24,548 nucleotides of DNA from a virus: IMG/VR virus record IMGVR_UViG_3300006923_000118, positions 1 to 24,548 of that record. The stretch is one strand, 5' to 3'. The translations under genes were made by a program, and so were the position numbers. The stretch's first letter is position 1; every line of letters starts with the position of its first letter. Of this stretch, positions 2,590 through 23,377 are shown piece by piece. The notes under the pieces are model-generated. The model was given only the letters and a program-made list of their open reading frames with translations, ran no database searches and was not told where the DNA came from.

Positions 2590-3306
2590 TTAATAACCCG
2601 ATAAAAAGGTATCTAACTTATCCATTAATTTTAATGACCCACTTAGTGCTTGACTTGTCACTTCTTCTTGTGATGTATCATAATTTAAAGATTCGTCATA
2701 AAGTTCTTTATCTTCCGCGTTTTTAAAGAGGTAGGCTCCAGGTGTTGATGGCGAGGATACCAAATCAAAACATATTAATTCGAAGTCATCTTGCACCATA
2801 TTTTTACCACCTTCTCGCTCAAGGGAACCCACACCTCTAGATGAAATACCTAAAGTTACGTCGTGTCTTAATAAATTTGCAGCGATATCCCCCACACAAG
2901 ATATCACACCGGTTTTGTGATATGCGGGAGAAGTGAGAATTTCCAATTTACCCATTAGTACGTTACCTTCCCACCAAGTTTCTAAAACCCTATGGGAGCT
3001 TCGTTCTAAATCTACTAATGACGATTCTGGATGATTAAGTTCAGATAAAGCACTTCCTTTTTCTATTAACTTCTGATAGTTAACCACTTCTCTTTTTAAG
3101 ATTTTTTCTGGGTACACCCTACCATTTCTATTTTCTACACCACTTTTTTGTAATATGGCATGAAAAATGATAGGCCCTTCTTGGATGGACCTATCTGTCA
3201 TTTCTTTAATGACTTTTTTGTTACTATTATTTTTGGGGGAGATGTGACCTGCGTCGTACTCTATTAGTATCCCAGTACCTACCTTCCCTGGCCTTAATAT
3301 TTCCAT
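2590..3306 (-). CDS. prohead maturation protease, T4 gp21-like
   Basis: A 238-residue serine protease of the herpesvirus-assemblin/T4 gp21 fold that cleaves scaffold and capsid proteins inside the prohead. The N-terminal half carries the typical ILQKSGVENRNGRVYPEKIL segment (51-70). The catalytic His is in SELNHPE (His92) and the nucleophile in LGISSRG (Ser155 or Ser156); FDLVSSPSTPGA (180-191) is the conserved segment after it. The C-terminus (about 196-238) is a short hydrophilic tail that may be removed by self-cleavage. It lies directly upstream of scaffold and capsid genes, as in T4. The start at 3306 is preceded 14 nt upstream by the recurrent AACTATTTAT motif, which sits inside a perfect inverted repeat. 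Confidence 0.92.
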   Translation of the reverse strand: MEILRPGKVGTGILIEYDAGHISPKNNSNKKVIKEMTDRSIQEGPIIFHAILQKSGVENRNGRVYPEKILKREVVNYQKLIEKGSALSELNHPESSLVDLERSSHRVLETWWEGNVLMGKLEILTSPAYHKTGVISCVGDIAANLLRHDVTLGISSRGVGSLEREGGKNMVQDDFELICFDLVSSPSTPGAYLFKNAEDKELYDESLNYDTSQEEVTSQALSGSLKLMDKLDTFLSGY

Positions 3307-7764: not shown

Positions 7765-8055
7765 TTAAATGACATAATCACACTCTACATACGCAGCAAC
7801 TGTAGGTACCCCGGTCTTATCTTTACAACTACCACCATTAACATATGTGACACAATTGTCTACTATTAAATTGTCACAAGTTTCACAGCACTCAACAGGT
7901 TTAGGTCCAACTGATAAAACATTACTATTTTTAACTATAAAGTCTGGTGGGGTAGGACTCCAAGAGTATACTGTAGTGCCAAGAACCTGCCTTAATTGTT
8001 TACCACTTTTATATCTCCCTATAGAACCAAACCCAGGTTTTTTAATTATTGCCAT
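7765..8055 (-). CDS. small Cys-rich protein between terminase and portal genes
   Basis: A 96-residue protein of unknown function. The N-terminal 40 residues are basic (MAIIKKPGFGSIGRYKSGKQ) and the second half carries six cysteines (VECCETCDNLIVDNCVTYV, GGSCKDK, VECDYVI), suggesting a metal-bound or disulphide-stabilised fold. Its place matches no T4 gene of clear homology; T4 has the tail sheath and tube genes 18 and 19 between terminase and portal, and this protein is too small to be either. It starts 9 bp after the terminase stop and ends 40 bp before the portal start. An ACTATTTAT motif lies 32 nt before its ATG, inside the end of the terminase gene. Confidence 0.65.
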   Translation of the reverse strand: MAIIKKPGFGSIGRYKSGKQLRQVLGTTVYSWSPTPPDFIVKNSNVLSVGPKPVECCETCDNLIVDNCVTYVNGGSCKDKTGVPTVAAYVECDYVI

Positions 8056-8064
8056 TTTATTTTT

Positions 8065-9789
8065 TTATTTTAGTCCGGTATACATCCATAAATAGTCCTT
8101 AGGGTTATTAGAAAATGGTGGTAATGGGTTACTTGACGCTCTACCTGGTTTAAAAACAGGTTCACTTCTTGTGGTGTTAAATTTTCGTTCATCGGTAACC
8201 CATGCGTCTAACATAGCTTTTGCTTGTTCGACATTCTTCTTTAGTAGGGTGAAGGAAGTTTGTGCGACATACAATGACATAGCCAAAGACATTATTAAGT
8301 CGTCATGGTATCCTTTCATATGGTCAGGTCTCCCATTTATATAGACAAAAGTTTTTAATTCGTTCATTAATCTTTGGGACCGTATCTTAAATCCTGTCCT
8401 CACCTGTTCCTCCAAAGCTTGGACTATTTGAGACCTTTTACTATTAAAATTAATTCCTGGGGTTTTGGTATCAGGATTAAACTTCCACATTTCATCAGAC
8501 TTAACGCCATCGTAATAAAAATCTTTATATCCCAACTCCAACATTTTTCTGGAAGTAGCTACACCCATACCTCCCGTTATGTCTATAACGACAAAACAAT
8601 TATATTTTTTTGCCCATTTATTTGCCAAATCTGCCACAATGTCTGGCGGAATCTTACCTAGATATTCTACTACTTCTTCTCTATCATCGAAATCTACAAT
8701 AACAAACCCACTGGAATCTTCACTATCTCCTCTAGAAACATCAACCCCCATAATATATTTATGGCCAGGAACTGGTTCTTTCCAAACCCAAAGACCATTA
8801 CCCACCCACTTTTCAGTAGGTTCACAAACATGTTCTTGTAATTGGTCCATGGTAGCGTTATTGATGACATTGTCTCCAGAACCGAGAAAAGCACACTCTA
8901 ACTCCTGTGAAATTCTTCTCCTATCGAACTTTAATTTTTTACACATTGACTCAAACCAGTCCGAAAAAGGTTTATATCCTTTATCTTGGTATAATTGATA
9001 ATCTTCTGGGGGTACGTTAGAAATAATATCTTCACGTTTATATTCGTCCCTATTTAAAAGAAAATGAACAATGTCTTTAGTTTTTATCCACCTTAAATCT
9101 TGTGTAAAACGAGGGTCGTAATACCAACTTAAGTAACTTACTTTAAAGTTATTTAGGCCTCTAATTGATTGGTCAAACACTTCATAATAGATTTGGTCGA
9201 ACCCATTAGGTGTCGATATTACTATTACTTTGCCCCCTGTGGCTAAAGATGCCATACAAGCTGCCCATAGGTTACTACCAGATTCAATATAAGCCGCCTC
9301 ATCAAAAACTAATATCGTTGGGGTGTACCCTCTTAGTGCGTCTACCGAAGTCGCTACCGCTTTCACTTCAGACCCGTTATTTAATTTATAGTGTTTTTGT
9401 GAATTTTTATCCTTATCAAACCCAACATTAATCCAATCAGGCCATTGTCTTAAAAATCCCTTTATTTTATTAGCCATTTCTGTCGCGGTGTCTAATTTAT
9501 TAGCCAATATCAGAATTTTTTCAGGAGATTCTTTGGAAGCAAATTGGAGTTTCTTAGATATCCAACCAGAAGTAACCGTAGATACTCCAGCCTGTCTGTA
9601 CTTGAGGACTATATTATCGTCATGGTCCTCGAAATCTTTAACCATTGCCTTTTGTTCAGGAAATAATTCAAAAGGGACGTGTTTTTTTTTAGTATTATCG
9701 TATGCTTGTAAATAAGTTTTAAGTGCGTACGGTGTATCACCATGACACTTAACATATTCTTGCATGAGTTCTTGTTTAGTCATTCCCAT
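8065..9789 (-). CDS. terminase large subunit, T4 gp17-like
   Basis: A 574-residue DNA-packaging motor with an N-terminal ATPase and C-terminal nuclease. Walker A variant is KYRQAGVST (63-71); Walker B is ILVFDEAAY (159-167, acids D163 and E164); coupling motif is ISTPNG (191-196). The RNase H-like nuclease acids are D350 in YIMGVDVSRG, D403 in FVVIDITGG, and D496/D497 in GYHDDLIMSLAMSLY. It docks on the portal, pumps DNA into the prohead and cuts the concatemer. Length is close to T4 gp17 (610). The start is ATG at 9789, with AACTATTTAT 4 nt upstream; an ATG at 9783 (Met3) is an alternative. No clear small subunit (gp16) is seen next to it. Confidence 0.97.
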   Translation of the reverse strand: MGMTKQELMQEYVKCHGDTPYALKTYLQAYDNTKKKHVPFELFPEQKAMVKDFEDHDDNIVLKYRQAGVSTVTSGWISKKLQFASKESPEKILILANKLDTATEMANKIKGFLRQWPDWINVGFDKDKNSQKHYKLNNGSEVKAVATSVDALRGYTPTILVFDEAAYIESGSNLWAACMASLATGGKVIVISTPNGFDQIYYEVFDQSIRGLNNFKVSYLSWYYDPRFTQDLRWIKTKDIVHFLLNRDEYKREDIISNVPPEDYQLYQDKGYKPFSDWFESMCKKLKFDRRRISQELECAFLGSGDNVINNATMDQLQEHVCEPTEKWVGNGLWVWKEPVPGHKYIMGVDVSRGDSEDSSGFVIVDFDDREEVVEYLGKIPPDIVADLANKWAKKYNCFVVIDITGGMGVATSRKMLELGYKDFYYDGVKSDEMWKFNPDTKTPGINFNSKRSQIVQALEEQVRTGFKIRSQRLMNELKTFVYINGRPDHMKGYHDDLIMSLAMSLYVAQTSFTLLKKNVEQAKAMLDAWVTDERKFNTTRSEPVFKPGRASSNPLPPFSNNPKDYLWMYTGLK

Positions 9790-14514: not shown

Positions 14515-14871
14515 CTAACTTTGTAAATACCCCATACCTATTAAAGTAAATGGGCTTGAGGGGTTTATTGTACTTCCACCATATGTAGCTCTTTGTGCAT
14601 TCCCGTCTGGATTATTACAATCATGACAACTACATATTAAGCATTGGTCTGTATTTAAAGCTCCAATACTTTTTATAATTATATCTAAAGTAGTGTCAGC
14701 ACCTATGGATATTGTTTCTCCATTTACATCTATAGTTGCTTGAGCGTTTGCACTATTATGGATTTGAAAACAAGTAATCCCGGTTATTTCTCCAGTAGGG
14801 GTTAAATGTGGTTCTATATTTGTACCACAATACATTTCATTACCGTATGATAATCCTGCATAATTTGCCAT
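14515..14871 (-). CDS. small beta-rich Cys protein, possible virion protein
   Basis: A 118-residue protein of unknown function. The middle (ATIDVNGETISIGADTTLDI) has the alternating pattern of a beta-sandwich, followed by a cysteine cluster CLICSCHDC and a Gly/Ser/Pro-rich end (GSTINPSSPFTLIGMGYLQS). Two more cysteines occur early (EMYCGTN, ITCFQIH). The shape is like short virion or fibre-associated beta domains. A TAATATTTAT motif lies about 20 nt before the ATG, so it may have its own promoter. It starts after a 53-bp gap from the nucleotidyltransferase gene. Confidence 0.7.
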   Translation of the reverse strand: MANYAGLSYGNEMYCGTNIEPHLTPTGEITGITCFQIHNSANAQATIDVNGETISIGADTTLDIIIKSIGALNTDQCLICSCHDCNNPDGNAQRATYGGSTINPSSPFTLIGMGYLQS

Positions 14872-14924: not shown

Positions 14925-15689
14925 CTAATCCAAACTTAGACTTAAATCCAATACTTTATTTTTTAAATCGAAGAGCTTTTTAATGTATCCACTTCTTCTT
15001 AAGAATTTAAAAGCTAAATTTTCATAGGAGTACTCACCCCCTTTTTCTAATCCTGTAGCTCTAAATTTTTTAAGTTTAGTTTTTATTTTTTCTACCAAAT
15101 CTAAAATCTCTTGTGGTGATTTTTGATATGCTTGGTGTTGTAGACTGTCTATGATTTCCATCCAACCCTCTGATTTCTCTAAGACTTTATTGATGTCAAT
15201 ATCTACACTATTTTTTTTAGGTAATACTAACCATTTATCAAATAATACGGAGTATACCCCACTGGAATGGTGTACCTCATCTACATCCTGAGCATACACT
15301 TCTACCTCATACCCTTTTACTTGTATGTCATGAGACGCGTTCCATAAATTCTTTTTTGCGTTAAGGATATTTTTAACTAGCCCAACATTTTCATCTATTA
15401 ATTCAAAATCTATAAGAATGTGTAGGTCTATATCCGAATACTGAGACCAATTGTAATTACAAATACTTCCAGTTATGGTGATGTCCCCAATATCACATTG
15501 TTGGGTGTCCATGTCACAATCTAAGTTATCTAAATCTACAAAATTCAAGAAGTCATTAGCACTCAGCAAAAGTTTATCCCGAACTTCTCTCCTTAAACGA
15601 TAATTTTTATTTTTATCTAAGGTCCAGATGTCGGGATTTAAACTTTTTTTCTGATTAAAACTTTGTAAGATACTATTTGCGAGGTCCAT
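14925..15689 (-). CDS. nucleotidyltransferase-fold protein
   Basis: A 254-residue protein with the polymerase-beta-type nucleotidyltransferase signature: Gly-Ser in ITITGSICNYNW (74-75), the metal-binding pair D86-x-D88 in YSDIDLHILIDF, and a likely third acid E130 in GYEVEVYAQ. Such enzymes move a nucleotide onto RNA, protein or a small molecule; the substrate here is unknown. The C-terminal half (about 160-254) is helical and basic (EKIKTKLKKFRATGLEKGGE). Related folds occur in tRNA-modifying enzymes, antibiotic adenylyltransferases and toxin-antitoxin MNT proteins, and I believe similar proteins occur in other large marine phages. No antitoxin-like HEPN partner is adjacent. AACTATTTAT lies 4 nt before its ATG. 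Confidence 0.78.
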   Translation of the reverse strand: MDLANSILQSFNQKKSLNPDIWTLDKNKNYRLRREVRDKLLLSANDFLNFVDLDNLDCDMDTQQCDIGDITITGSICNYNWSQYSDIDLHILIDFELIDENVGLVKNILNAKKNLWNASHDIQVKGYEVEVYAQDVDEVHHSSGVYSVLFDKWLVLPKKNSVDIDINKVLEKSEGWMEIIDSLQHQAYQKSPQEILDLVEKIKTKLKKFRATGLEKGGEYSYENLAFKFLRRSGYIKKLFDLKNKVLDLSLSLD

Positions 15690-15964: not shown

Positions 15965-17821
15965 TTATTTTACTTCTTCATATTCTACATCTGTAGTTTC
16001 TTCTTGCTTATCTCCCTCGGTCTCGGATTGTTCGTATAGTTTACTAGATATGGATTGCCAATTTTTGTTTAACTTTTCTAAATTAGAGTCGATAGAATCT
16101 AAATCTTCATTTTTATATGACTCTTTAAGGTCGTTTAGGGATTCAGTTAGTATGTCTTTATCCCCATCAGTTAATTTTTCTTCGAACTCCTTAATTTGTT
16201 TCTCGGTTTGGAATATCATTGCGTCAGCTTCATTTAACTTTTCCACTTTTTCCTTCTTCTCTTGGTCTTTAGCTTGATTTTCCTCCGCTTCCATCTTCAT
16301 CTTCTCAATCTCTTCATCAGATAAACTACTTCCAGATTCTATCATTATATTATGGGACTTACCCGTTCCTTTGTCGTTCGCACTTACATTAATGATTCCG
16401 TTAGCGTCAATATCAAAAGTGACCTCAATCTGAGGAATCCCTCTAGAAGCTGGTGGAATATCTGTAAGTTGGAACCTTCCTAATGTTCTATTATCCACAG
16501 ACATTGGTCTTTCTCCTTGAAGGACATGGATATCTACTGATGGTTGGTTGTCTACAGCTGTTGAGAACACTTGGGACTTAGATGTTGGTATAGTACTATT
16601 AGATTCAATTAACCTGGTCATCACTCCACCCATGGTTTCAATACCTAACGATAATGGGGTAATATCCAACAATAAAACATCGTTGACTTCACCTGAAAGG
16701 ACGCCTCCTTGGATAGCTGCTCCCATAGCGACTACTTCATCAGCATTAACCCCTTTAGAAGGCTTTCTACCAAAGAACTTCTCAACGGACTCTTGTATTA
16801 CTGGAATTCTAGTTGAACCACCAACTAGAATCACATCATCAATATCGTTAATCGTTAGTTTAGCGTCCTTTAGTACTTTACCACACGGAGCAATGCTCCT
16901 CTTTACCAAATCACTAACCATAGCCTCAAACTTAGAACGAGACAAACTTAAAGCAAGGTGTTGTGGTCCCCTTGAATCCGCGGTCAGATAAGGTAAGTTT
17001 ATTTCGGTGTTTGTAGAAGAAGACAATTCTACTTTCGCTTTTTCTGACGCTTCTTTTATCCTTTGTAAGGCCATTGGGTCTTTACTCACATCCATCCCAC
17101 TACTCTTCTTAAATTCCTGAATTAACCAGTCCATAATAACCTCATCAAAGTTATCTCCCCCTAAGTGAGTATCTCCATTAGTGGATAGTACTTCAAAAAC
17201 GCCATCACCCATTTCTAAAATAGAAATGTCAAAAGTCCCACCACCTAAATCGTATACAGCAACTTTTTTATCTTTATTGTCATCTAATCCATAGGCTAAA
17301 GACGCGGCGGTAGGTTCATTGATTATCCTCAACACATTAAGACCAGCAATCTCCCCGGCCTCTTTAGTGGCGTTTCTTTGTGAGTCATTAAAATAAGCTG
17401 GTACTGTGATAACCGCGTCTGTTACGGTTTCTCCTAGGTATTCCTCAGCTGTCTTTTTAAGATTTTGTAAGATGACCGCTGACACTTCTTGTGGGACGTA
17501 ATCTACATCACCTATCTTAATACCTACACCGTTTTTACCTACTTTTGATACTTTATATGACATCTTAGCCATCTCTTTCTTAATTTCTGAATAGGTACTA
17601 CCCATGAATCTTTTAACTGAATAAATGGTTTTTTCTGGATTCGTTACCGCTTGTCTCTTCGCGGGGTCACCAACCATTCTTTCACCCTTATCCTTAAATG
17701 CTACCACAGAAGGTGTAGTCCTTTGACCTTCACCATTCACGATAACTTTTGGTTCGTTACCTTCAATCACAGCAACACAGGAATTTGTCGTTCCTAAATC
17801 TATACCAATTATTTTTCCCAT
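15965..17821 (-). CDS. dnaK: DnaK (Hsp70) chaperone, full length
   Basis: A complete 618-residue Hsp70, which binds and releases exposed peptide segments with ATP. The ATPase domain has [14 protein letters not shown] (5-18), the catalytic Lys70 (YSVKRFMG), [13 protein letters not shown] (167-179) and DLGGGTFD (191-198). The interdomain linker DVLLLD is at 381-386, followed by the substrate-binding beta domain ([19 protein letters not shown]) and a helical lid ending in DVEYEEVK, the acidic EEV(D/K)-type tail of bacterial DnaK. No key residue is missing. It is the first gene of the long minus-strand head operon, coupled to the KTSC gene. No dnaJ or grpE is in the window, so it would need host partners or phage ones elsewhere. 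The sequence looks Bacteroidetes-like, so acquisition from a host is likely. In lambda and other phages host DnaK takes part in replication or assembly; here the placement suggests capsid protein folding. Confidence 0.98.
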
Positions 17822-17849: not shown

Positions 17850-17884
17850 ATTTATGGGAAATATAATAATAGTTTCCCATAAAT
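17850..17884. promoter_or_regulatory. 12-bp perfect palindrome over the probable dnaK promoter (operator candidate)
   Basis: ATTTATGGGAAA at 17850-17861 is matched by its exact reverse complement TTTCCCATAAAT at 17873-17884, with an 11-bp AT-rich spacer. On the minus strand, TTGATT (17887-17882) and TATATT (17865-17860), 16 bp apart, would be -35 and -10 of dnaK and fall on the two arms. The architecture (long arms, spacer of about one helical turn) is like CIRCE, the HrcA operator of heat-shock genes, but the sequence differs. It lacks a T-run, so it is not a typical terminator. Confidence 0.65.
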
Positions 17885-17918
17885 CAAGTAGTCAAATAAC
17901 ATACCATAACAACAATAC

Positions 17919-17952
17919 TGACATTTTGTCATAGAGACATGACATAACGACA
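17919..17952. promoter_or_regulatory. cluster of TGACA/TGTCA elements between dnaK and clpC
   Basis: TGACA (17919-17923) and TGTCA (17927-17931) form a 5-bp inverted repeat with a 3-bp gap. TGTCAT (17927-17932) and ATGACA (17939-17944) form a 6-bp inverted repeat with a 6-bp gap; CGACA follows at 17948. The cluster ends just before the clpC -35 box, where an activator or repressor would bind. Confidence 0.45.
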
Positions 17953-17956
17953 ATGG

Positions 17957-17985
17957 TTGATTATTAATGTTATTGGCAGTATAAT
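17957..17985 (+). promoter_or_regulatory. sigma70-like promoter for clpC
   Basis: TTGATT (17957-17962) and a perfect TATAAT (17980-17985) are separated by 17 bp, the ideal spacing. They lie 28 bp before the clpC ATG. No Bacteroidetes-type TAnnTTTG box is seen here, so this promoter may serve a different polymerase form than that reading the tRNA gene. Confidence 0.55.
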
Positions 17986-18013: not shown

Positions 18014-20053
18014 ATGAAATTAGAAGGAAACTTTGCTGACTTCGAGTCCGATGACTCTAGCAGTAAACCAAGAAAAGAGAAAAGTAGTATCAAAAGTAGG
18101 ACACCTGTTCTAGATAATTTTTCTAGAGATTTGATACTATACGCTGAAGAAGGGAAACTGGACCCCGTGGTAGGTAGAGAAGAAGAAATAAATAGGATTG
18201 CCCAAATATTATCTAGAAGAAAGAAGAATAATCCTGTTTTAGTAGGTGAACCTGGTTGTGGTAAAACTGCGTTGGTAGAGGGGTTAGCTATTAAAATCAG
18301 TGAGGGTCGTTGTCCACGTAACCTATTAGATAAAAAAATAATAGGTTTAGATTTGACTTCTATAGTAGCAGGCACTAAGTACCGTGGTCAGTTTGAGGAG
18401 AGAATGAAAGCTATTATTGATGAATTAAAAGATAATGATGATATCATTATCTTCATAGACGAAATACATACGGTAGTTGGGACAGGTAACGCTTCGGGTT
18501 CTTTAGACGCTGCCAATATATTTAAACCTGCTCTAGCAAGGGGAGAGGTCCAATGTATTGGAGCGACCACGATTGATGAGTTTAGAGAAAATATTGAGAG
18601 GGACGGTGCACTGGAAAGGAGATTCCAAAAAGTAATGGTAAACCCTACGACTATGGAAGAGACATTACAAATACTTAAAAACCTAAAAGGTAAGTATGAA
18701 GACCATCACAAAGTAAGGTTTACAGAAAACACCTTATCTACGTGTGTTATGTTAGCTGAACGATATATAACCCATAGAGAATTTCCAGATAAAGCTATAG
18801 ATATAATGGATGAGGTAGGAGCTAAAGTACAAGTAGATATCACCTTTCCCAAAGAGATAGAAGACTTAAGGAATAAATTGGCTAATTTAAAAGTGGAGAA
18901 GATAGATGTGGTAAAATCTCAGAGATATGAAAAAGCCGCGGAACTTAGAGATGAAGAAAGGAAGGTGGTAAATCTTTTAGAGGATAAGAAATTAGAATGG
19001 GAACTGGAGATGGAACATAGTAGGGTAGATATTACCGAGGAAGACATCTATAAAGTAGTGTCTCAAATAACTAAAATTCCCTTAACTAAATTAGATAGTA
19101 ACGAAACAAAAAATCTATTAAATTTAGAAAAGTTATTACAGAGTTTAGTTATAGGTCAAGATGAAGCTATTAAAAAAATAGCTAAATCTATTAGAAGAAA
19201 TAGGGTCGGGATTCGTGAAGTTAAAAAACCTATTGGTTCATTTATGTTTTTAGGTTCTACTGGTGTGGGTAAAACTCATTTAGCTAAATCAATAGCTAAA
19301 GAAATTTTTGGGAGTGAAGACGCTTTAATTAGATTAGATATGTCTGAATATAAAGAAAAATTTAACTCCACTAGACTAATTGGTTCTCCTCCAGGATATG
19401 TGGGATATAATGAAGGGGGTCAATTAACGGAAGCTGTAAGAAAAAAACCCTACGCTGTTATCCTTTTAGATGAAATTGAAAAGGCTCATTCAGATATCTA
19501 TGATTTATTACTCCAAATATTTGATGAAGGCCATTTAACGGATAGTTTAGGTAGGAAGATAAACTTTAAAAATACTTTAATTATAATGACTTCTAATGTG
19601 GGGGCTAAACAAGTTAGTGGGTTTAATAAACCCTTAGGTTTCTCTACCAAAGATAGTGAATCTAGATTAGATGAAGCTAAAGACCAAATAATTAAAAAAG
19701 CACTTAAAAATACTTTTAAACCAGAATTTTTAAACAGGGTTGACCAGATAGTGGTATTTAAACCCCTACAAAAAAGAACTATTAGTAAAATAGTTAAATT
19801 AGAATTAACTAACTTACAAGAAAGATTAACTGAAAAAAAATATAGTGTCTCTTTTGATAATTCTATAGTAAAATATATTGTAGAAGAAGGTTATGATGAA
19901 AAGTTCGGTGCCAGACCAATAAAAAGAGCCATTCAAAATAAACTGGAAGATTTTATTTCTGAAGAAATATTAAAGGGTGCCGTTAAGACTGAAATAGAGT
20001 ATGAAATGGTAGTAGATAAAGAAAATGTAATTAGTCTGGATATAGTTGAGTAA
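18014..20053 (+). CDS. clpC: ClpC-type double AAA+ unfoldase lacking the N-terminal domain
   Basis: A 679-residue Hsp100 ATPase. After a short charged leader (1-32), AAA-1 has Walker A GEPGCGKT (78-85), Walker B IIIFIDE (144-150) and ALERRF with arginine fingers (199-204). A UVR-type motif in a short middle region, KSQRYEKAAELRDEERKV (301-318), is typical of ClpC rather than ClpA, and the middle is far too short for a ClpB disaggregase. AAA-2 has GSTGVGKT (414-421), VILLDE (482-487), TSN (526-528) and GARPIKR. The loop KPLGFST (LGF at 541-543) matches the ClpP-docking (V/I/L)GF tripeptide, so it should feed a ClpP protease, presumably the host's, since none is in the window. The usual Clp_N repeats (about 150 residues) that bind adaptors are absent. 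It is divergent from dnaK and the only plus-strand protein gene here. Confidence 0.95.
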   Translation: MKLEGNFADFESDDSSSKPRKEKSSIKSRTPVLDNFSRDLILYAEEGKLDPVVGREEEINRIAQILSRRKKNNPVLVGEPGCGKTALVEGLAIKISEGRCPRNLLDKKIIGLDLTSIVAGTKYRGQFEERMKAIIDELKDNDDIIIFIDEIHTVVGTGNASGSLDAANIFKPALARGEVQCIGATTIDEFRENIERDGALERRFQKVMVNPTTMEETLQILKNLKGKYEDHHKVRFTENTLSTCVMLAERYITHREFPDKAIDIMDEVGAKVQVDITFPKEIEDLRNKLANLKVEKIDVVKSQRYEKAAELRDEERKVVNLLEDKKLEWELEMEHSRVDITEEDIYKVVSQITKIPLTKLDSNETKNLLNLEKLLQSLVIGQDEAIKKIAKSIRRNRVGIREVKKPIGSFMFLGSTGVGKTHLAKSIAKEIFGSEDALIRLDMSEYKEKFNSTRLIGSPPGYVGYNEGGQLTEAVRKKPYAVILLDEIEKAHSDIYDLLLQIFDEGHLTDSLGRKINFKNTLIIMTSNVGAKQVSGFNKPLGFSTKDSESRLDEAKDQIIKKALKNTFKPEFLNRVDQIVVFKPLQKRTISKIVKLELTNLQERLTEKKYSVSFDNSIVKYIVEEGYDEKFGARPIKRAIQNKLEDFISEEILKGAVKTEIEYEMVVDKENVISLDIVE

Positions 20054-21697: not shown

Positions 21698-23377
21698 TTA
21701 AGTGTAATCATTACCTACCGTCCAAAAAGCTGCAGTTCCATTATAGGTGAAAGATAAGATATCTGTAGCACTCGCAGTAGCGGTTAGAGTTGCTACACCA
21801 CCACCACCATTGACCACATAATGTGTTCCTGCACCACCATTAATGGTTCCGAGACCCAAGGTTCTGTTTCCCGTCGCGTCCTGATGGACTATAATAGTAC
21901 CATATTCTCCATTTATTACATTTGTTAAATCTAACTGACCATTTGCAACTAAAGTAATTTCAAAGTTAGTGCTCTGCCCACTTAAATCCCATGTCCAGTT
22001 ACCTGCTGGGGTACCCCCAGAATAATAAGCATCGATTTCACAACAATCACCACTAGTGTCACCCGTAATGACTAAACCATCACTGGTAATACCTAAACTT
22101 GCGATAGATGTACCACCAGGTGCGTTATTTATGTTTAAGTAAGGGACATAAACTGTATTATCACTTCCACCAATTAACCCTGAACCACCCAAAATTACAG
22201 AGTTATTTACAACTGGGTTCGTGAGGTTCGGGTATAATGCGTTACCTATTCCACCCACAATAGAGGAAGAAAAACCAGATGAAATGGTGTTCCCACTACC
22301 ACCTATTATAGTATTGTTATAACCATAGTCCACCTCGTTATAGACTCCACCGACTATTGAAGACGCGTCTGTACCACCTAAGATGTGAGCATATCCCCCT
22401 ACAATGGTATTAAACTGAGATATCATTCCAGAACTCATGTAAGGATTGGATATTGTCGAGTTGGGGGATAATAGTGCCCCACTATAGTCACTATTTGACA
22501 CGACACTACGAGACCCACCCAACAGAACTGCTCCACCACTCTCATAAATTGCGTGACAATTACCAACCGATTTACCAGTACACTTACCACCTATAATTGC
22601 ACTTCCACTAGATGATTCAAAACTACTACCACTAATAATAGCATACGTGTGCCCTAATATGTGAGCGTCCGCTGTATTATTAATTACATTCGTATACCCA
22701 CCAGTTATGGATGAACCAGATGACGCAGTATCTATAATATGGTTTTGACCTCCTAATATACTTGACCATGCACCTGATACATAACCCGTAGGGGGCCCAC
22801 CCCCATTTACATTATGGGAATATACAAAAGATGTTTGGCCATTAGCAGTCACACCGAAACCACCAGCGTGGGAATTATTACCTGCCGCTTGGTTGTCTTC
22901 ACCCTCCGCTACAGCATAGTCCCCAGTAGCGTCCACCGTACTAATGTTAACTGTTTTTATTGAGTAGTCACCCGTACTACCGGATGTCCAATATAGTGAG
23001 GAGTCAGTAAGGTAACCAGTCACGTCAAAAGTACCACCACTATTATTAGTAAAGGTACTGACCCCAGTTGATGGATTATGTGTACCACCTGTAACGAAAA
23101 CATCAGTACCACTTCCACCACCAGTACTCGCAATCACTATAGAGTCTCCACTTATGCCGATAGTAACTCCGTTGGTTCCAGATAAAGAATAGAGATTCAT
23201 GGTGCCGTCATTGGGATTCACCTGTTTATCCCTAAATATACCAATGCCCGTACCCACATTTCCACAGGTGGTGTTATCTATCTTAGTACTTAAAATACTA
23301 AGATTTCCATCCAACTCACCATGGGTTAATGCTGTGGTTTGACTCGTTCTTAAATAAAAGGGTAATGGTAAAGGCAT
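21698..23377 (-). CDS. tail fibre with YadA-like beta-roll head repeats
   Basis: A 559-residue, Gly/Ser/Thr/Asn-rich fibre protein. The N-terminal 140 residues contain VFVTGGTHNPSTGVSTFTNN and FDVTGYLTDSSLYWTSGST, which I associate with fibre proteins of marine T4-like phages. From about 150 to 410 run many short repeats of the form (S/N)xI(I/V/L)GGxxNx(I/V) (SILGGQNHII, SIVGGVYNEV, TIIGGSGNTI, SIVGGIGNAL), the pattern of the left-handed beta-roll in YadA-type trimeric adhesins. The C-terminal 130 residues (LDLTNVINGEYGTIIVHQDA; ATDILSFTYNGTAAFWTVGN) form a beta-sandwich-like tip common in such fibres. It is probably a trimeric host-recognition fibre. AATATTTAT is 15 nt before the ATG. Confidence 0.8.
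   Translation of the reverse strand: MPLPLPFYLRTSQTTALTHGELDGNLSILSTKIDNTTCGNVGTGIGIFRDKQVNPNDGTMNLYSLSGTNGVTIGISGDSIVIASTGGGSGTDVFVTGGTHNPSTGVSTFTNNSGGTFDVTGYLTDSSLYWTSGSTGDYSIKTVNISTVDATGDYAVAEGEDNQAAGNNSHAGGFGVTANGQTSFVYSHNVNGGGPPTGYVSGAWSSILGGQNHIIDTASSGSSITGGYTNVINNTADAHILGHTYAIISGSSFESSSGSAIIGGKCTGKSVGNCHAIYESGGAVLLGGSRSVVSNSDYSGALLSPNSTISNPYMSSGMISQFNTIVGGYAHILGGTDASSIVGGVYNEVDYGYNNTIIGGSGNTISSGFSSSIVGGIGNALYPNLTNPVVNNSVILGGSGLIGGSDNTVYVPYLNINNAPGGTSIASLGITSDGLVITGDTSGDCCEIDAYYSGGTPAGNWTWDLSGQSTNFEITLVANGQLDLTNVINGEYGTIIVHQDATGNRTLGLGTINGGAGTHYVVNGGGGVATLTATASATDILSFTYNGTAAFWTVGNDYT

Follow-up and report, generated by a model that had tools for sequence, protein, structure and literature searches.

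The inverted repeat that precedes the dnaK gene of this virus is best explained, with a probability of about 55%, as a phage-specific hairpin at the 5' terminus of the dnaK mRNA, probably protecting the transcript and lying behind a heat-shock promoter of the host type. The window, i.e. the entire 24,548-nt stretch of DNA that was analyzed (IMG/VR record IMGVR_UViG_3300006923_000118), is a contig of a T4-like phage, as indicated by matches to gp20, gp21 and gp23. Its dnaK gene forms a divergent pair with a gene for a Clp-type ATPase, and a 192-nt intergenic control region is common to both:

15965-17821, minus strand: dnaK (Hsp70, 618 aa; Pfam PF00012, E 4e-256)
18014-20053, plus strand: divergent gene for a Clp-type AAA+ ATPase of the ClpA/B/C family (Pfam AAA_2, AAA_lid_9 and ClpB_D2-small)
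17850-17884, minus strand: 12-11-12 inverted repeat; its RNA would fold into a stem of 15 bp if wholly transcribed, or of 11 bp from the predicted +1, closed by a loop of 4 nt

The sequence-only reading had described a perfect 12-bp inverted repeat with an 11-bp spacer, overlapping the promoter boxes proposed for dnaK. Both parts of this description are accurate: the repeat reads ATTTATGGGAAA-TATAATAATAG-TTTCCCATAAAT, and it overlaps the sigma70-like boxes TTGATT/TATATT at 17887-17860 and TTGACT/TATTAT at 17895-17866. With spacers of up to 40 allowed, no other perfect inverted repeat in the window is as long. Arms of at least 12 nt were obtained in 27 of 300 dinucleotide shuffles of the whole window (9%) and in 49 of 5000 shuffles of the 192-nt intergenic region (about 1%), suggesting that the arm length by itself is mildly unusual and not decisive. 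We hence count the repeat as significant because it is conserved in relatives, and not because of its length. The CIRCE element, which is the HrcA operator, has the consensus TTAGCACTC-N9-GAGTGCTAA; it shares with the phage repeat the form of an inverted repeat before dnaK, but differs from it in sequence and in the geometry of arms and spacer. No CIRCE match was recovered in the window at up to three mismatches, and the earlier judgment that the repeat is not CIRCE thus stands. An intrinsic terminator was ruled out, since the stem is not followed by a T-tract on either strand, and no match to Rfam families was obtained up to E = 1. The palindrome core has four exact matches in IMG/VR: L004 is a near-identical phage, and the remaining three (L002, L003 and L005) were set aside as chance occurrences within one homologous coding gene of unrelated contigs.

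Upstream of the repeat we identified a second, better conserved set of elements:

17880, minus strand: predicted dnaK +1, which we infer by assigning -13 to the G of TTG
17893-17906, minus strand: sigma54-type -24/-12 element TGGTATGTTATTTG (TGG[CT]A-N6-TTG), the same element being present in host dnaK, grpE, htpG and groES promoters
17919-17931, unstranded: palindromic TGACA-N3-TGTCA site TGACATTTTGTCA, a putative stress-activator site that precedes the -24 element by 12 nt
17940-17952, unstranded: second, degenerate TGACA-N3-TGTCA copy TGACATAACGACA, displaced by 21 nt towards clp; it is weak, and sequence comparison shows it to vary among relatives

The promoter block at 17893-17931 is conserved better than the sigma70-like boxes and is shared with bacteria. 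Among the close relatives, which were obtained from DnaK searches in IMG/VR and which retain the divergent layout with DnaK proteins 82-86% identical to that of the window, the most conserved upstream blocks are TGACA-N3-TGTCA and TGGTAT-N5-TTTGA. The TGACA-N3-TGTCA site is essentially unique in each phage contig, and phages whose DnaK is only 64-65% identical still have it upstream of dnaK. The layout recurs at dozens of phage dnaK loci of the Bacteroidota type. The gap between the two elements measures 12 nt, except in one clade with 43-44 nt; these lengths differ by 32 nt, or about three helical turns. On the bacterial side, the exact pattern TGACA-N3-TGTCA-N12-TGGYA was recovered in 20 of 148 Flavobacteriales genomes, as against 1 for the reversed control. 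The 21 host sites are distributed, per Pfam assignments of the genes, before dnaK (12), grpE (4), htpG (2) and groES (1), with two sites without assignment. Positions 17893-17931 of the window fit this Flavobacteriales heat-shock promoter, having both elements at the N12 spacing before a chaperone gene. Among dnaK leaders sampled broadly across the phylum, diversity was too great for TGACA-N3-TGTCA to emerge, although several of them carry TGGCAC-N5-TTG. The longer motif TGACA-N3-TGTCA-N12-TGGYA-N6-TT[G/A] is seen at host loci (L057, L058, L060-L063, L298-L312) before dnaK, grpE, htpG and groES, and this fixed-spacing motif looks like the signature of a Bacteroidota heat-shock regulon with a putative activator.

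Promoters of the sigma54 -24/-12 class have a consensus spacing equivalent to TGG-N8-TTG, with TTGC as the consensus -12 element. The window has TGG-N8-TTG at 17906-17893, spaced as in the host promoters, whereas the GC dinucleotide of the -12 element is replaced, the window having TTGA and the host dnaK promoters TTG[A/T]. Versions with TTGC are seen before grpE (L055, L302 and L312) and hsp20 (L065), of which L055 and L065 come from the broader phylum sample. Judging from these sequence features, sigma54 would be the reader of the phage dnaK promoter. A published sigma54 scan (PMC12316311) found DnaK, GrpE, GroES, GroEL and IbpA enriched in Flavobacteriia, with control by sigma54 being predicted. 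The promoters predicted there share with ours TGG[C/T]A-N6-TTG at -24/-12 before dnaK, grpE and groES; in contrast, the phage copy (TGGTAT...TTTGA) has an imperfect -12 element, precedes a viral gene and is followed by a hairpin. Within the open-access papers searched we found no report of TGACA-N3-TGTCA at the fixed N12 spacing.

These observations suggest that the phage has retained a host stress switch along with the chaperone gene. The sequence-only reading had raised the possibility that the palindrome captures a host stress regulator; such a capture has probably occurred, but rather than the palindrome, the site involved seems to be TGACA-N3-TGTCA at 17919-17931 together with its TGGTA/TTG promoter. 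In the mechanism that we favor, phage dnaK would be transcribed from a host-type Bacteroidota heat-shock promoter, consisting of the activator site TGACA-N3-TGTCA, 12 nt and TGG[C/T]A-N6-TTG. The stem-loop would form right at the 5' terminus of the transcript once RNA polymerase leaves the promoter, and about 30 nt of unstructured, A-rich leader would separate it from the start codon. The hairpin would most likely guard the mRNA against 5'-end-dependent decay, and high output of phage DnaK would be the consequence once the host stress activator switches the promoter on.

The sequence-only reading had made conservation in close relatives that keep dnaK a check on the repeat, and the repeat passes it: at 82-86% DnaK identity it is conserved at the same place (L006-L013, L019 and L022), and a pattern scan of the whole viral collection recovered the same set of contigs as the DnaK search. 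The arms are ATTTATGGGAAA/TTTCCCATAAAT in the window and L006, GGGAAA/TTTTCC in L019, GAGAAA/TTTCTC in L011-L013, and ATGAAAA/TTTTCAT with one bulged A in L007-L010 and L022. The changes in the arms are thus paired (GGG/CCC, GAG/CTC and GAA/TTC, with GGG/TCC forming a G-U wobble), and the stem of L011 has one C-A mismatch. The outer pairs, ATTT/AAAT, are invariant in the close relatives. A clade with 73% DnaK identity (L153, L155, L158, L161, L165, L264 and L273) has a shorter stem, ATGAAA-4 nt-TTTCAT, mostly followed by AUAAA as in the window, and the distance between its half-sites differs by about 12 nt from that in the window clade. Comparison of the two clades therefore indicates that the spacing of the half-sites is not fixed, while the hairpin and its position are kept. 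No such hairpin is present in L014, L018, L184 and L194, dnaK phages that share the promoter. It should be noted that the window clade supplies only about four independent variants of the hairpin, and that the viral contigs are fragments.

The absence of the hairpin from these same-promoter phages, along with the frequency of comparable arms in the shuffled sequences, is what might be expected if the repeat were a by-product, i.e. a functionless AT-rich inverted repeat or duplicated start-codon motif, with the upstream promoter alone being of consequence. We consider this very unlikely, as the repeat is retained with paired changes across the 82-86% clade and has a shorter counterpart at this position in the 73% clade. 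In a separate set of more distant dnaK phages (L177, L181, L182, L193, L195, L199, L206, L208 and L217-L229) a different element occupies about the same place. It comprises (C)TTGA between complementary stems, followed by CCATAAA (e.g. GGAG-TTGA-CTCC and GGAA-CTTGA-TTCC), and is present in one copy, or nearly so, per contig.

The location of the repeat relative to the promoter points to a role at the RNA level. The core of the repeat, ATGGGAAA...TTTCCCAT, begins at the predicted +1, with 17880 being the A of ATGGGAAA. The RNA starting there folds as AUGGGAAA C UAU UAUU AUA UUUCCCAU with -9.2 kcal/mol, as compared to -13.8 kcal/mol when the outer four pairs are included, and an A-rich leader precedes the phage dnaK. 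In both the window clade and the 73% clade the core of the hairpin (ATG[G/A]...) lies 12-13 nt after TTG, i.e. at the predicted +1 or +2, this offset being seen in L153, L155, L158 and L165. The window clade has folding z-scores of about -2.8 to -4.5, and several members of the 73% clade have weak ones; 19 host leaders have a mean of 0.0 and no hairpin at the same offset. Exchange of arms among four lineages weakens the summed pairing energy, the native combination being the best of 24 permutations. Column-wise covariation in a MAFFT alignment of only five distinct sequences was no better than in shuffles (346/500), and the shorter hairpin of the 73% clade escaped a covariance model built on the window clade. 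We therefore favor a 5'-end RNA hairpin on account of its fixed position, the folding z-scores and the native pairing of the arms, and claim no statistical proof. The outer four pairs (ATTT/AAAT) would not be explained by RNA pairing, because they lie upstream of the predicted +1.

These same outer pairs, which are invariant and would not be transcribed if +1 is at 17880, are the main reason to consider the repeat as a DNA operator, on which a dimeric phage or host regulator would occupy both half-sites and repress or modulate dnaK by covering the start region. This is close to the repressor-operator role proposed in the sequence-only reading, and the symmetric, AT-rich repeat does overlap promoter-like boxes and +1; relatives preserve the symmetry at the DNA level too, with a native sum of 34 that 2 of 24 permutations attain. 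Yet searches of the kind advocated there recovered no further copy in the window or in flavobacterial genomes: the repeat is its own sole match in the window at up to three mismatches, is single-copy in every phage contig that carries it, and is missing from the 148 Flavobacteriales genomes at the same threshold, results that speak against a multi-site phage operator and a host operator, respectively. A repressor operator is expected to have conserved half-sites and spacing, usually at more than one site. Here, the half-site sequence varies among relatives at 82-86% DnaK identity, the spacing shifts between the clades, and a bulge or mismatch breaks the symmetry in several relatives. Moreover, the arms change together in a manner that preserves RNA pairing, the change in L019 being a tolerated G-U in RNA but a mismatch in DNA, and the core begins at the predicted +1. 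An operator is accordingly a rather unlikely explanation, and the evidence argues instead for the RNA hairpin.

The right arm of the hairpin could additionally pair with the start region of dnaK:

17808-17821, minus strand: dnaK start region ATGGGAAAAATAAT, with 13 of 14 positions complementary to the right half of the repeat (17854-17867)

This raises the alternative of a bistable leader, in which the left arm and the region of the start codon (AUGGGAAAAAUAAU) would compete for the right arm, so that the left arm would act as an anti-inhibitor keeping the start codon free and translation initiation would be masked without the 5' hairpin. The Watson-Crick complementarity in the window was reached by none of 2000 shuffles, and blocking the left arm is predicted to bring the start region and the right arm together as a duplex. 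Every relative of the clade has 11-12 of 14 pairs at the same site, G-U included (shuffle fractions 0.01-0.16), but the complementarity in the relatives relies on G-U pairs and partly reflects the invariance of start codons and common sequence. The 73% clade, in which many starts are ATGACA or ATGGCA, mostly lacks it. The 5' hairpin, moreover, wins in the full-length fold of all members. We therefore regard such a switch as quite improbable. A wider scheme that includes it has a modest probability, and we put it forward tentatively: a putative Bacteroidota activator would bind TGACA-N3-TGTCA at a fixed helical phase, its distance from a sigma54-type promoter being 12 nt or 12 + 32 = 44 nt; this host switch would have been kept by many dnaK phages, which would make DnaK upon the stress signal of infection or heat; and some lineages would have added a 5' hairpin that masks or frees the start codon as a second, RNA-level control.

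Stem-loops in 5' UTRs are known to stabilize mRNAs (PMC7509114). The 5'-terminal stabilizing stem-loops of the ompA type, which include those of recA and vacA (PMC7509114), resemble the predicted architecture of the phage transcript: in both, a single-stranded leader separates the start codon from a stem-loop located at the 5' end or close to it. In contrast to them, the phage element is part of a dnaK transcript made from a promoter of the heat-shock type, the sequence and length of its stem vary by lineage, and the stabilization, which we infer, is a prediction. DnaK-encoding phages of Bacteroidota are also represented by the moraphages (PMC12619734), whose DnaK apparently came from Flavobacteriales, as it apparently did here; the passages concerned treat the proteins and not the promoter, and the window itself belongs to a T4-like contig. 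Our results suggest that the host stress response would decide the timing of viral DnaK, with the RNA hairpin being an addition of the phage. To our knowledge, the mechanism by which heat-shock genes are activated in Bacteroidota is not settled; a two-part promoter motif with fixed spacing, common to host chaperone genes and many phages, offers a direct handle on the activator.

Two further features of the window deserve mention. CATAAAT was considered as a late promoter of the T4-like type and rejected, as the late genes of the window instead carry TATTTAT upstream. This heptamer occurs 11-47 nt upstream of 7 of the 18 genes in the structural region, as against about 0.02 expected per gene, and is a candidate late-promoter motif of this T4-like phage; the minus-strand late genes concerned include those at 1078-2484, 2590-3306, 7765-8055, 8065-9789, 14515-14871, 14925-15689 and 21698-23377. 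On the side of the divergent clp gene, an invariant TTGATTATT block is present in all close relatives 25 nt past the TGACA site (17957-17985, plus strand, in the window), and in some of them a TGG[C/T]A-type element lies 42 nt away.
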